A stretch of DNA of 5,632 bases from Candidatus Fermentibacterota bacterium (GTDB lineage Bacteria; JAFGKV01): the NCBI GenBank assembly GCA_030620115.1, contig JAUXFG010000210.1:1-5632 (forward strand), given 5' to 3'. A program made the translations under genes and the position numbers. The notes below the pieces were generated by a model, which saw only the letters and a program-made list of their open reading frames with translations, ran no database searches and had not been told where the DNA came from. Below, piece by piece: positions 344-5,240 of the stretch. Within the stretch, counting starts at the first letter, position 1, and every line of letters begins with the position of its first letter.

Positions 344-2791
344 CTACAGGTCCAGCTCGATGCCTGCGTAGAAGGTTCTTTCAGCGCCGGGCCAATAGTA
401 CCTGGCGCCCTCCCATGAATCATAGTAGCCCGATGTCTCATAGAGCTTGTCGATCAGATTGTCGACTCGGAACTCAAGAGTTGCCCTGCCGAGCCCATGG
501 ATCAGAAATGGCCCGACTCGGACCCAGCCATCCGTGAGGGCATAGGCGTCGATTGTGCGATCATCTTTGCCGCTGGTATCCAGATACTGCGTGCCGACGC
601 TCTTGAAGCGCAAGCCGATATCCAGCGGCGATAGCTGGTAAGCGAGGGTTGCATTCATCAATCGTTCCGGGAAGAGTGGGATCGGGTTGCCGGAAAGATC
701 CTCTCCCTCCTCATCCCAGCTCTCATAACTGGTAAACTTTTTTAGCTCGTTCTTGCTGAATGATCCCGTGGCGGCCAAAAGGATTTCCCCGTGGGGAAGG
801 CGCAACGGGGGAAGTCGAAGGGAAAGCTCGATCCCCCTGTGTTCCGTCTTCGGCGCATTGCCCGTCACTGGTGCGCCTCGATCTTGGTCGAATCTCCCAT
901 AGGGCACGATCTCGTTCTTGAACTGCATGAGGTAGAGTGCAATCCCCGCCTGGAAATCACCTTTCTTGAACTGGATGCCTGATTCATAGTCCGTCAAATC
1001 CTCTGGGTCCACCTGCGGATCCTTCCATTCGACGTATTCCACCTCCCCTTGGCCCGATCTGACAGTGTCTGCCGTGGTGAACAGCGGGTCGACAAACAGG
1101 TCATCCGGCCCATCCCACACGTCGAAGTAGTCATCATCCGCCGGTTCCCTGTATGCCTTGGAAACGTTGACATAGGCGGAAAGCCCGTTGATTGGTCGGA
1201 AGGTGACTCCCAGTCGCGGGCTGAAGAATGTATGGTCATCATCGAAGCGATTGAGCTCAACTCCCTGGAAGTTGCCTTCCTCTTCTTGCTGGAAATGATA
1301 CTTCTTCATCTGGACGGCGACGTCGGACATGATGTCCACACGGGACCCGAGGTGGGTGAGTAGATGGACGAAGGCCGACAGATTCAGCTTCTGCCCCTTG
1401 TACCGATAGTAGTCCCCTCTGACGGTATCCGCATACTCGGTCCAGAGCAGTTCCCCCCAATGCGTGCTACGATAGTACGAGAGCTCGCTGCCTAACGAGA
1501 CGTCGACCCAGCTTCCGCTCAGATCAGTCCGCGAGATCCAGCCAACTTGATCCTTCTTGACCTCCTTTTGCCGTATGAGGTCAGCCCTGGTACTGTCGTC
1601 GGTCGCAGGGACAACGCCGTAGTCTCGCAATTTCTTGTTGTACTTGAACTGTTCATAGTAGCCTCTGCCCCGAATGTAGAACAGACTGCTCCCAATCGTC
1701 ATACGCTCAGACGGGGTCATGGAGAAGTGAAGCTCATAATGCGGCTGATTGAAGCTGTCGATCTCATTGTGATACGCAACCGGATTGAACTTCCTGTTCT
1801 TTGCCAGGCTGTCTTCGTGGGCCGCATACCATCCCGCGTGGCTCTTGATGGGACCACCATAGGCATTGAACCGGATTATCTTGTTTTCCTTGATAGCCTG
1901 AGCAGCAAGGAAGTATGACCAGAGGTCTGAATCGGTACGATCCCTATAACCATCTGACAGCACGCGGGAGAAACGAGCGTACATAGAGCGGTTCTGTGAA
2001 GATGCGGATGTGAGGCTGAATGTGAATCGCCGGGTTCCCCAACTTCCCATTCCGCTGGAGAGATGGAAGCCTGGCTCCCCAGGAAGCGCTATGGTAGACA
2101 TGTTGACGGAACCGCCAAGCCCATGTTGACCGGAGAGTGCCGTGCCGACACCGCGCTGAACTTGAATGTCCCGGAGGCTCGACGAGAGCTCCGGCATGTC
2201 CACCCAGTAGACCTGGTGATCTTCCGGATCATTTAGGGGAATGCCGTTGATCATGACATTCACTCGTTTCTGGTCAAATCCCCTGATCTTCAGGTAGGAG
2301 TAGCCGACACCGTTACCTGCGTCCGAATAGGCGTAGACCCCAGGTACGAGATCCTGCAGCAGCATGGGCACATCCTCGACGCTGCGCTCCCGCACCAGTT
2401 CGGCTTCGGAGATGTCGGTAAAGGTGACAGGGGTGACCCCGCGCGTGGCCCGTTGCGCAGTAATGATCACCTCCCGGGCTGCCAGGATCCGTGGTTCCAG
2501 GCGGAAATCCTGTACGATCTCCCCACCGGAAATCTGGATGATACACCGCTGGGAGCGGTACGCGATGTGGCTCGCCTCCACTTCGTAGACGCCGGGTGGA
2601 AGTGGGCTGATCAGATAGGAGCCGGATTCATCGGTGATACTGCCGGCGCCAAGTCTCGCAACCTCAACATTGGCGTTGATGATGGGCTCACTGGTTTCGG
2701 CATCTAGTACATGGCCGGCCACGCTGCCGACCAATTGTGCATGGCCATGACCCCAGGCCAGCAACATGAGAAGCGGGAATATTGCCCTCAT
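344..2791 (-). CDS. TonB-dependent outer-membrane receptor, predicted thiamine/precursor importer
   Basis: This 815-residue protein is predicted to be an outer-membrane active transporter energised by TonB-ExbB-ExbD. Residues 1-18 form a signal peptide with a hydrophobic LLMLLAW core and likely cleavage after GHA. Residues about 21-100 form a carboxypeptidase-regulatory-like beta domain (GHVLDAETSEPIINANVEV, SGSYLISPLPPGVYEVE). REVIITA (106-112) may be the TonB box. The plug follows at about 115-235, with KIRGFD, VMINGIPLNDPE, IQVQRGVGTAL and GGSVNM. The rest is a barrel rich in aromatic, alternating strands, ending FYAGIELDL. Length is normal for the family. The ATG start is supported by a signal peptide and a ribosome-binding site six bases upstream. 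The substrate is inferred from the TPP riboswitch in its leader: riboswitch-controlled TonB receptors for thiamine are known in Bacteroidota. The sequence alone cannot separate thiamine from its pyrimidine or thiazole precursors. Confidence 0.9.
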   Translation of the reverse strand: MRAIFPLLMLLAWGHGHAQLVGSVAGHVLDAETSEPIINANVEVARLGAGSITDESGSYLISPLPPGVYEVEASHIAYRSQRCIIQISGGEIVQDFRLEPRILAAREVIITAQRATRGVTPVTFTDISEAELVRERSVEDVPMLLQDLVPGVYAYSDAGNGVGYSYLKIRGFDQKRVNVMINGIPLNDPEDHQVYWVDMPELSSSLRDIQVQRGVGTALSGQHGLGGSVNMSTIALPGEPGFHLSSGMGSWGTRRFTFSLTSASSQNRSMYARFSRVLSDGYRDRTDSDLWSYFLAAQAIKENKIIRFNAYGGPIKSHAGWYAAHEDSLAKNRKFNPVAYHNEIDSFNQPHYELHFSMTPSERMTIGSSLFYIRGRGYYEQFKYNKKLRDYGVVPATDDSTRADLIRQKEVKKDQVGWISRTDLSGSWVDVSLGSELSYYRSTHWGELLWTEYADTVRGDYYRYKGQKLNLSAFVHLLTHLGSRVDIMSDVAVQMKKYHFQQEEEGNFQGVELNRFDDDHTFFSPRLGVTFRPINGLSAYVNVSKAYREPADDDYFDVWDGPDDLFVDPLFTTADTVRSGQGEVEYVEWKDPQVDPEDLTDYESGIQFKKGDFQAGIALYLMQFKNEIVPYGRFDQDRGAPVTGNAPKTEHRGIELSLRLPPLRLPHGEILLAATGSFSKNELKKFTSYESWDEEGEDLSGNPIPLFPERLMNATLAYQLSPLDIGLRFKSVGTQYLDTSGKDDRTIDAYALTDGWVRVGPFLIHGLGRATLEFRVDNLIDKLYETSGYYDSWEGARYYWPGAERTFYAGIELDL

Positions 2792-2797
2792 TGAGTA

Positions 2798-2804
2798 CCT
2801 CCGG
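2798..2804 (-). promoter_or_regulatory. Ribosome-binding site of the receptor gene
   Basis: The minus strand reads CCGGAGG, then six bases, then ATG. It lies downstream of the terminator hairpin, so it is only transcribed when the riboswitch allows read-through. Confidence 0.8.
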
Positions 2805-2810
2805 GAAGAA

Positions 2811-2853
2811 GAGAAACAAAACGCCGCCCAGGCCGGTTGGTGCCGGGGCGGCG
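2811..2853 (-). terminator. Intrinsic terminator in the receptor leader (riboswitch expression platform)
   Basis: On the minus strand, CGCCGCCC (2853-2846) pairs perfectly over eight bases with GGGCGGCG (2829-2822). Above one mismatch, three more pairs (2842-2844 with 2831-2833) leave an eight-base loop. The stem is followed directly by TTTTGTTTCTC (2821-2811). It sits between the TPP aptamer and the ribosome-binding site, the classical position for transcriptional control. Ligand binding should favour this hairpin and stop transcription before the receptor gene. Confidence 0.88.
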
Positions 2854-2880
2854 CGAAACTCGGAAGAAGAGCGGCGATAT

Positions 2881-2968
2881 TCCCTGTCCCTACGCTGGCA
2901 TGACCCAGATCAGGTTCAAGGGGTCTTCTCTCAGGTACCGCGTGAGCGGACCACCCCCCGGGCTGGAC
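2881..2968 (-). promoter_or_regulatory. TPP (thiamine pyrophosphate) riboswitch aptamer
   Basis: The minus-strand RNA carries the hallmark thi-box elements in order. CUGAGA is at 2934-2929, followed by ACCCCUU, the GAACCUGAUC core (2917-2908), CUGG, and GCCAGCGUAGGGA (2899-2887). The P2 arm can be drawn: 2952-2946 pairs with 2941-2934 with one bulged U, closing on the tetraloop UCAC, and its last pair uses the C of CUGAGA as in known TPP aptamers. GGGGU (2957-2953) precedes P2 as expected. The outer P1 helix is less clear; CCC (2962-2960) with GGG (2884-2882) is one option, so the outer limits are approximate. One base departs from the usual UAAU after CUGG, which here reads UCAU (C at 2902). 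The aptamer controls the receptor gene 90 bases downstream. Confidence 0.95.
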
Positions 2969-3030: not shown

Positions 3031-4314
3031 ATGATTGGACGCCGTGTCGCGTTTGCCACGCTGGGCTGCAAGCTCAACTTCGTGGAATCAGAGGAGATGC
3101 AGCAGCTCCTGCGGGACCAGGGCCATGCCATCGTCCCGTTCGGGGAAGAGGTGGACTTTACGGTGATAAACACATGTACCGTCACAGGCAAGTCCGATTT
3201 CAAGAGCCGGCGGCTCATAAGCAAAGCCCGTCGGACCAATCCGCAGGGCAAGATCATCGTGACAGGCTGCTATGCTGAGCTCGATCCTGGGATCCTCGCA
3301 GAGTTAGAGGGGGTTTCCGCGGTTCTCGGCCTCGGTCAAGAGCGACGGCTTGCTCAAGTGATGGAAGATCTTTGGCAAGGCCACGCCGAGAAGGTCGCGC
3401 CCCGTGGGGAATCAGACGCCAGGCTATCCGTCCTCCGGCGTGAGACAAACTTGAGTAGAGCATTCATCAAGGTGCAACGAGGATGCAACAACCGCTGTAC
3501 ATTCTGCCGTGTGTGGCAGGCCAGAGGGCCCTCAGTCAGTGAGCCCATAGAGCGCATTCTTGCCCAGACGGCGCTCTTCCTGGATCAGGGCTTCGAAGAG
3601 CTCGTGCTCACCGGCGTTGACATGGGGAGCTGGGGTAAGGATCTGGATTCGAAGCGCAGATTCAGTGATCTGTTAGCACAGCTGGTGGCTCTTCAGGGGA
3701 AATTCCGGATCAGATTGAGCTCCATCTATCCTATGGACATCGACGAGAATGTTTTCAATCTTCTCACCGAGCACCAACGTGTGTGCAGGCATCTCCACCT
3801 CCCTCTGCAGAGTGGAAGCCCCACTGTACTCAATCGCATGGGTCGCCACATGTCTCCTGATCAGTTCATTGATCTCACACGGCGGTTGCATGATGCCGCA
3901 GGCCGCTTCGGCATAGGCGCCGATGTCATTGCTGGATTCCCTGGCGAGAGCGAACGCGACTTCAATCTCACGCGAGAAGTCGTAGAACGATCCGCCATCA
4001 CCTACCTTCACGTATTTCCTTATTCGCCGCGCAGAGGGACGGCGGCTGCACGGTTTCCGGATCAGCTTGCCCCAGACACCATCAAGCACAGGGCGCGAGC
4101 GCTTCGGGAACTCGGAGAAATTAAGAGGGCGGCATTCAGAGCAAGCCATCCAGGTGGGCCGGTGGAGGTTTTGGTGGAACGGAGAAAGGACCGCAAGACC
4201 GGGCTCTTGACCGGTTTCACTAGCGGTTATCTGCGCGTCTTTTTCCATGGTCCCGATGAATGGATGGGGAAACTCCGGAGGATCGATTTTTCCCCCGGGT
4301 TGTCTGTGGGCTAG
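3031..4314 (+). CDS. mtaB: tRNA t6A37 methylthiotransferase MtaB (radical SAM)
   Basis: This 427-residue protein is predicted to add the 2-methylthio group to t6A37 in tRNAs that read ANN codons. It acts in the cytoplasm with two iron-sulfur clusters and S-adenosylmethionine. The N-terminal methylthiotransferase domain has the three auxiliary-cluster cysteines: C13 (TLGCKLN), C49 (INTCTVT) and C80 (VTGCYAEL). The radical SAM domain has C152, C156 and C159 (GCNNRCTFC). Family motifs follow: LTGVDMGSWGKDL, RLSSIYP, HLPLQSG, ADVIAGFPGE and HVFPYSPRRGT. A TRAM-like RNA-binding tail covers about 378-420. TLGCKLN and HVFPYS fit MtaB better than MiaB or RimO. After the third radical SAM cysteine the sequence is RVWQARGPS, where many relatives have an IIPxARG-type run. 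It is transcribed away from the receptor gene and overlaps the convergent hydrolase gene by four bases. Confidence 0.88.
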   Translation: MIGRRVAFATLGCKLNFVESEEMQQLLRDQGHAIVPFGEEVDFTVINTCTVTGKSDFKSRRLISKARRTNPQGKIIVTGCYAELDPGILAELEGVSAVLGLGQERRLAQVMEDLWQGHAEKVAPRGESDARLSVLRRETNLSRAFIKVQRGCNNRCTFCRVWQARGPSVSEPIERILAQTALFLDQGFEELVLTGVDMGSWGKDLDSKRRFSDLLAQLVALQGKFRIRLSSIYPMDIDENVFNLLTEHQRVCRHLHLPLQSGSPTVLNRMGRHMSPDQFIDLTRRLHDAAGRFGIGADVIAGFPGESERDFNLTREVVERSAITYLHVFPYSPRRGTAAARFPDQLAPDTIKHRARALRELGEIKRAAFRASHPGGPVEVLVERRKDRKTGLLTGFTSGYLRVFFHGPDEWMGKLRRIDFSPGLSVG

Positions 4315-5240
4315 AAAGGTAGCGGTTCGGTGCTGTCGATGAAGCGCACGCCCTGTTTCTCGTAGGTGGTGAACTGGGCAAGTGCCATGGCATGGAAGTC
4401 GATATTGGGATGCCGGACCGGCGACATGCAGTCACGCAGGATCAGGATCTTTGCCAGTTTCTCAGGAATCACGCCGAATTCCTGCACGAGGTCTCTTACG
4501 GTCTCGAGTACGCAGTGCGTCTCGGCTTGACCGGCGATGATGACGTAATCATAGGCATCAAGAAGATCGAGGAATTCCTGACTGAGTCCCCCTTGGGGAT
4601 GATTTGGAACAGGGATTTCCGGGCGAAGAATGGAATAGTGCTCGGTTCGGGGCAGACTGCCCTTTGTCAAAAGCGTTGGTTGATATCTCCGAGCAATGGC
4701 GTGCCAGAACACCGCTGACCAAAGCTCCGGGTCCAGAGCATTGCCCACGCCTCCGATGGGTACATGATAGGGCCAGATCACCAGCTCCTTCTTGGCGCGT
4801 TGCTGCAGCTCGTGTACGTAACGGACTGACCAATCGGGATCATTGACCGGTTGCCACCGCCCCACGGCAACGTCATCAGCCGTGATCACCGTAAAGGGCG
4901 CAGGATGCCGGCCGTCGACATCGACCCACCAAGCTGCATGAAAGATCTGGAACGGGTAATGCGAATCCAGGGAACAGGTGATGTGAGTGATCCGTTCGGC
5001 ATTCCGGTAGATGAATTGAATCAAGCGCCGGATGTCTTCCTCGGCGCCTGGAACGTAGAGAGACCCGCCTTCGTGGCAGAAATCCACCTGCATGTCGATC
5101 ACCAGCAGATGAACCTTGACGCTGTCTTTCGCAGCCGGCGGTAGCCCTGCCTGCTCGGCTGCGGTGGCGATGGTTAACACGTCGGGATGGAACAATGTGC
5201 CCACACGAACGGGATCATGGAAACCAGGAATATCTACCAC
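4311..5240 (-). CDS. Nicotinamidase-like cysteine hydrolase (isochorismatase superfamily)
   Basis: This 309-residue cytoplasmic hydrolase probably converts nicotinamide to nicotinate and ammonia in NAD salvage. Residues visible by family motif are the triad D49 (LLVIDMQVDF), K193 (LLTKGS) and C243 (AGQAETHCV). The metal ligands would be D92 and H94 (SLDSH) and H159 (WPYH). WPYH, TKGxxxxxEHYS and the pre-cysteine AGQAETH follow the nicotinamidase layout more closely than the isochorismatase one. At 309 residues it is longer than typical enzymes of about 180-220. It has some 40 residues before the first strand and longer loops at about 100-155 and 203-222. It starts with GTG, supported by CCGGAGG seven bases upstream. 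The upstream gene ends 26 bases before it on the same strand, suggesting an operon. Another amide substrate remains possible. Confidence 0.78.
   Translation of the reverse strand: MVDIPGFHDPVRVGTLFHPDVLTIATAAEQAGLPPAAKDSVKVHLLVIDMQVDFCHEGGSLYVPGAEEDIRRLIQFIYRNAERITHITCSLDSHYPFQIFHAAWWVDVDGRHPAPFTVITADDVAVGRWQPVNDPDWSVRYVHELQQRAKKELVIWPYHVPIGGVGNALDPELWSAVFWHAIARRYQPTLLTKGSLPRTEHYSILRPEIPVPNHPQGGLSQEFLDLLDAYDYVIIAGQAETHCVLETVRDLVQEFGVIPEKLAKILILRDCMSPVRHPNIDFHAMALAQFTTYEKQGVRFIDSTEPLPF

Follow-up and report, generated by a model that had tools for sequence, protein, structure and literature searches.

A TPP riboswitch upstream of a TonB-dependent receptor, a predicted thiamine importer, in a Fermentibacterota-related bacterium

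Results

Organization of the receptor locus

The stretch of DNA analysed here (the window) is a complete contig of 5632 bp, C162 of genome G000. On its minus strand, a TPP aptamer (read from 2968 to 2869) is followed by a terminator with its T-tract (2854-2814), a Shine-Dalgarno sequence (2802-2798) and the reading frame of an 815-aa TonB-dependent receptor, which begins with ATG at 2791 (Table 1). A sequence-only reading of this DNA had claimed a full TPP aptamer in the minus-strand leader, a terminator and a ribosome-binding site in the order of an off-switch, and a position directly before the receptor gene, and all of these were borne out. The divergent neighbor encodes the methylthiotransferase MtaB and lies outside the system. 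It marks the synteny with the related genome G001, where an orthologue of 57.8% identity occupies the same divergent place (locus L002).

Table 1 Features of the window and the basis of their assignment.
Feature	Position	Strand	Basis or remark
Dispersed repeat at the contig end	1..160	.	71 matches in its own genome; internal 23-nt direct repeat
TonB-dependent receptor, 815 aa, predicted thiamine/vitamer importer	344..2791	-	Pfam, fold, TPP-linked orthologues
Shine-Dalgarno sequence GGAGG	2798..2802	-	Sequence; 6 nt before ATG
Terminator T-tract TTTTGTTT	2814..2821	-	Sequence
Intrinsic terminator hairpin	2821..2854	-	In MFE and centroid folds
Antiterminator, predicted 3' half; shares bases with the loop and 3' arm of the terminator	2826..2836	-	Pairing with 2968-2958
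TPP riboswitch aptamer	2869..2968	-	Rfam RF00059, full length
5' strand region of P1; antiterminator, predicted 5' half	2958..2968	-	GUCCAG.CCGG pairing
MtaB methylthiotransferase	3031..4314	+	TIGR01579, 391.9 bits; divergent neighbor
309-aa protein	4311..5240	-	Partial isochorismatase/nicotinamidase match only; overlaps mtaB 3' end by 4 bases

The TPP aptamer and its expression platform

The Rfam covariance search of the leader, as the sequence-only reading had proposed, identified RF00059 with 64.3 bits against a gathering score of 54.3 (E = 2.2e-11), and all model positions from 1 to 105 are covered. Only three Watson-Crick pairs are formed by P1 in the Rfam alignment. This is the single RF00059 match in the whole genome (4.10 Mb, 98.3% complete), and the search for further TPP riboswitches found none besides the leader's own. 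The identity of the TPP riboswitch and the off-switch order of the leader are thus supported.

The terminator stem is built of eight Watson-Crick pairs and one GU pair, followed by three further pairs beyond a mismatch. A simple consensus scan for promoters and terminators listed nothing and was uninformative; it probably missed the hairpin at 2854-2821 because the stem is interrupted. A duplex of 10 base pairs with one mismatch is possible between 2836-2826 and the 5' side of P1 along with its preceding bases (2968-2958). The fold constrained to this antiterminator has an energy of -62.1 kcal/mol, compared with -66.7 kcal/mol for the fold without constraint, in which the terminator is present. 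For a transcript of 151 nt, the antiterminator state is the best fold. When 28 terminators were tested against the aptamer of the window, the strongest duplex was the one with its own terminator. The complementarity between aptamer and terminator over 28 leaders gave a permutation p of 0.015, which rests on few loci with the window among them, and the antiterminator is for this reason a prediction for the window leader and not a rule of the family. The whole-leader fold is no more stable than shuffled sequences (z = -0.7), so that folding energy alone provides no evidence. From these models, the layout is predicted to be a classical off-switch, in which P1 and the antiterminator would be mutually exclusive.

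A hairpin and a T-run after the aptamer were identified in 27 of 31 relatives' leaders as well as in the window. The closest relative, L002, is without a terminator, and a small CUCC/GGAG hairpin (L002:5903-5960) covers its Shine-Dalgarno sequence instead. Judged from the leader sequence, this hairpin suggests translational control in place of a terminator, and the type of expression platform may have shifted among close relatives.

Family and fold of the receptor

The receptor carries an N-terminal CarboxypepD_reg_2 domain, a TonB plug (PF07715, 55.4 bits) and a TonB_dep_Rec barrel (PF00593, 103.1 bits), with the plug and the barrel above their gathering scores. Its AlphaFold model (pLDDT 86) superimposes on FecA with a Z score of 40.4 and an rmsd of 2.8 over 613 residues, and on BtuB with a Z score of 38.0; FecA, BtuB and PqqU range from 38 to 40 in Z at only 16-18% identity. 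PqqU is the best Foldseek match (TM 0.67/0.82). The fold is the same as that of the cofactor-importing receptors PqqU/YncD and BtuB of E. coli, whereas the identity to them is 16-18% over the structural alignment, and their ligands and regulation are different. Sequence searches of the PDB returned no solved structure of this receptor subfamily, only partial profile matches to the plug or the barrel, and all solved receptors whose substrate is known are less than 20% identical. The best NCBIfam match is a TonB-siderophore subfamily, below the cut-off. Fold and sequence alone give the receptor no substrate. In the tree, it is the sister of a Fermentibacterota receptor with 100/100 support, whose locus likewise has MtaB in divergent orientation and a symporter downstream.

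Conserved linkage of the receptor with the TPP riboswitch

To the receptor we compared 33 relatives from several phyla (35-60% identity where aligned), which were picked by receptor sequence alone in a scan of one-genome-per-species contigs, the riboswitch not being a criterion. A full TPP aptamer was found upstream of the receptor in 31 of these 33 loci by Rfam scans. As for the two exceptions, merely 121 bp of upstream sequence is present in L017, and L014 has no TPP match in 389 bp upstream, even at E 0.1. Since the loci were chosen without regard to the riboswitch, the linkage is conserved over several phyla. The earlier reading had also proposed to cluster the receptor with known TPP-regulated receptors; that of a Caldithrix abyssi MAG (L020) falls in the same tree. 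The thiamine-type substrate, which had been claimed from regulation, is supported by the RF00059 match, this linkage and the conserved TPK, ThiL and symporter neighbors. On this comparative sequence evidence, thiamine or a vitamer is a well-supported candidate substrate of the receptor.

Some relatives show peculiarities of their own. The receptor reading frame at L029:3290-6226 includes an N-terminal CsgG-like domain in one frame of 978 aa and is a possible fusion. L013 and L031 are titled Armatimonadetes/Armatimonadota yet resemble Cloacimonadota: the L013 receptor groups inside the Cloacimonadota clade, and the symporters of both are more than 90% alike to a Cloacimonadota symporter or to each other. 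These may be misbinned contigs or mislabelled MAGs.

Contig end and inner-membrane partners

The contig ends 343 bp past the receptor stop codon, within a dispersed repeat whose units contain CTCCTCGCAATGAC. It was probably this repeat that made the assembly break off there. Because the contig ends, neither a symporter nor TPK is seen in the window. Taken literally, the earlier statement that the window holds no inner-membrane transporter is correct. The window is the whole contig, however, and with its end so close to the receptor, such an absence says little about the operon.

The 33 loci of the relatives contain an SSS-family symporter in 26 cases, a YkoEDC-like ABC system in 3, a TPK homologue in 13 and ThiL in 2, the last being located between the TPP riboswitch and the receptor (L003 and L009). 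An inner-membrane transporter stands beside the receptor in 29 of the 30 informative relatives, a set that leaves out L023, L029 and L032, where the loci run off the contig. The YkoEDC-like genes (PF09819 and a double ATPase) are divergent from the receptor in L010, L016 and L022 and replace the symporter there. In the two nearest genomes, G001 and G002, which belong to the same family as G000, a symporter comes directly after the receptor: it starts 349 bp after the receptor stop in G001, where the divergent MtaB orthologue is likewise present, and a 76% identical symporter follows a receptor fragment about 0.27-0.29 kb later in G002. The claim of a lone receptor with its transporter encoded elsewhere is not supported by these arrangements, and the apparent isolation of the receptor is probably an assembly artefact of the contig end.

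A truly lone receptor does exist in Cloacimonadota. At L028:5778-8385, a TPP riboswitch and the receptor have no thiamine transporter or thiamine genes among the scanned neighbors, and this locus is a better example than the window.

Thiamine metabolism of the genome

Neither ThiC nor the TMP-TENI (ThiE) family was detected in G000, G001 or G002, with the control genomes positive. In G000 (296 contigs, 98% completeness), the PnuC/PnuT, YkoE and ThiB families were not detected, and neither was TPK. No symporter orthologue was found in G000; the best match (29% identity, at C110) is PutP-like and lies beside MenA, and it was rejected as the partner. ThiL was identified at C89 with 235 bits. Its scanned neighbors (TatC, a prenyl synthase and LysRS) include no transporter. 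Five TPP_enzyme_C matches are found in the genome. In the search for pnuT and thi genes that had been proposed, PnuT, ThiC and ThiE were undetected and ThiL was present. These results suggest that G000 is a thiamine auxotroph. Among the papers searched, none linked Fermentibacteria and thiamine.

The presence of ThiL without TPK or ThiE means that the cargo could be phosphorylated, or else that a kinase was missed or lies in an assembly gap. TPK and ThiL are both present in G002, and in G001 neither scores over the cut-off, for which reason gaps in the fragmented assemblies are the simpler reading of this pattern.

Discussion

The locus very probably represents an OMthi-type gene, repressed by TPP, for thiamine scavenging at the outer membrane, and the Fermentibacterota-related bacterium carrying it apparently cannot make thiamine. 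Under TPP scarcity, the antiterminator would form by pairing of the 5' side of P1 with the terminator, and the receptor would be transcribed. When TPP is bound, P1 would close, the terminator would form and transcription would stop. Energised by TonB, the receptor would bring thiamine, or else a vitamer that is phosphorylated or a precursor, as far as the periplasm. A carrier in the inner membrane would then move the vitamin into the cell, and this carrier is most likely the SSS-family symporter found after the receptor in the closest relatives. Because no symporter orthologue or TPK was found in G000, we infer this downstream partner, placing the symporter just past the contig end.

It is conceivable, though rather unlikely, that the receptor is truly lone, that this genome no longer has the symporter, and that a transporter from some unrecognised family, encoded elsewhere, takes the vitamin across the inner membrane. 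The failure to detect the symporter orthologue, PnuT, YkoE and ThiB in an assembly of this completeness fits such a loss, and L028 demonstrates that a lone TPP-linked receptor exists, its predicted neighbors not being thiamine genes. However, the contig breaks within a 71-copy repeat so shortly after the receptor, both same-family genomes keep the receptor and then the symporter, and a gene of 1.4 kb flanked by repeats could have ended up on a small contig left out of the bin. With the SSS orthologue, PnuT, YkoE and ThiB all undetected, there is no candidate for a transporter at another place in the genome, but there is one for a position just beyond the contig end.

The sequence cannot tell thiamine, HMP, TMP and TPP apart as cargo. 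A phosphorylated vitamer (TMP or TPP) as the main cargo, with ThiL converting imported TMP to TPP, would agree with the ThiL of G000 beside undetected TPK and ThiE, as well as with the ThiL genes between riboswitch and receptor in L003 and L009. Against this improbable reading, TPK adjoins the receptor in 13 relatives, which fits free thiamine, L003 has TPK in addition to ThiL, G002 also encodes both, and assembly gaps, a ThiK-like thiamine kinase or a ThiN-type TMP synthase could explain the pattern. Quite improbable, too, is a direct import of TMP or TPP in this lineage by the receptor together with an inner-membrane carrier of an unrecognised kind, in which case ThiL would complete the cofactor and TPK would be dispensable. 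TPP riboswitches govern precursor salvage too in other bacteria, and YkoEDC-like systems, present near three relatives, are thought to carry HMP or thiamine. HMP or a degradation product is nevertheless a very improbable cargo, as G000, G001 and G002 have no ThiE to join HMP with the thiazole and the TPK neighbors in the relatives need intact thiamine. The least probable reading takes the protein for a receptor of iron siderophores or B12 that came to lie behind a TPP riboswitch by chance: the sub-cut-off NCBIfam match and the fold ties with FecA and BtuB point that way, but 31 of 33 orthologues are TPP-linked, thiamine genes recur in their loci, and the identity to every solved receptor of known substrate is so low.

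TPP-regulated outer-membrane thiamine transport was predicted by Rodionov et al. 2002, as cited in PMC5317091 and PMC5613172. Caldithrix abyssi, represented among the relatives by the MAG L020 with a locus of this type, has a TPP riboswitch, a TonB receptor, a sodium:solute symporter and TPK in succession (Cabys_3975-3977, PMC5317091), and its receptor was called highly similar to BT2390 (PMC5317091). The window shares the riboswitch before the receptor, whereas the symporter and TPK are not seen in it, as the contig ends, and TPK is found nowhere in G000. BT2390 (OMthi) of B. thetaiotaomicron is likewise a TPP-riboswitch-controlled outer-membrane TonB receptor, and its role in thiamine uptake is genetically supported: its deletion in a biosynthesis mutant raised the thiamine EC50 from 2.8 to 15.8 nM (PMC5613172). 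The transcript level of the B. thetaiotaomicron thiamine transport operons was unchanged with thiamine (PMC5613172), which counts against the present reading. The partner there is PnuT (PnuT-Tnr3), undetected in G000, whereas the relatives of the window carry the SSS symporter or the YkoEDC-like ABC system in its place, and B. thetaiotaomicron makes thiamine while G000 apparently does not.

In conclusion, the window locus is a further member of a known TPP-regulated receptor arrangement. The present analysis contributes the lineage in which it occurs, how widely riboswitch and receptor are linked, and the observation that inner-membrane partners replace one another. TPP-controlled outer-membrane thiamine uptake is extended to a Fermentibacterota-related lineage, with substrate evidence for the receptor family across KSB1, Calditrichota, Cloacimonadota, Acidobacteriota and Fermentibacterota. 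One receptor type pairs with at least two unrelated inner-membrane carriers across the family. The auxotrophy to which the genome points would matter for cultivation, in which thiamine would be supplied.
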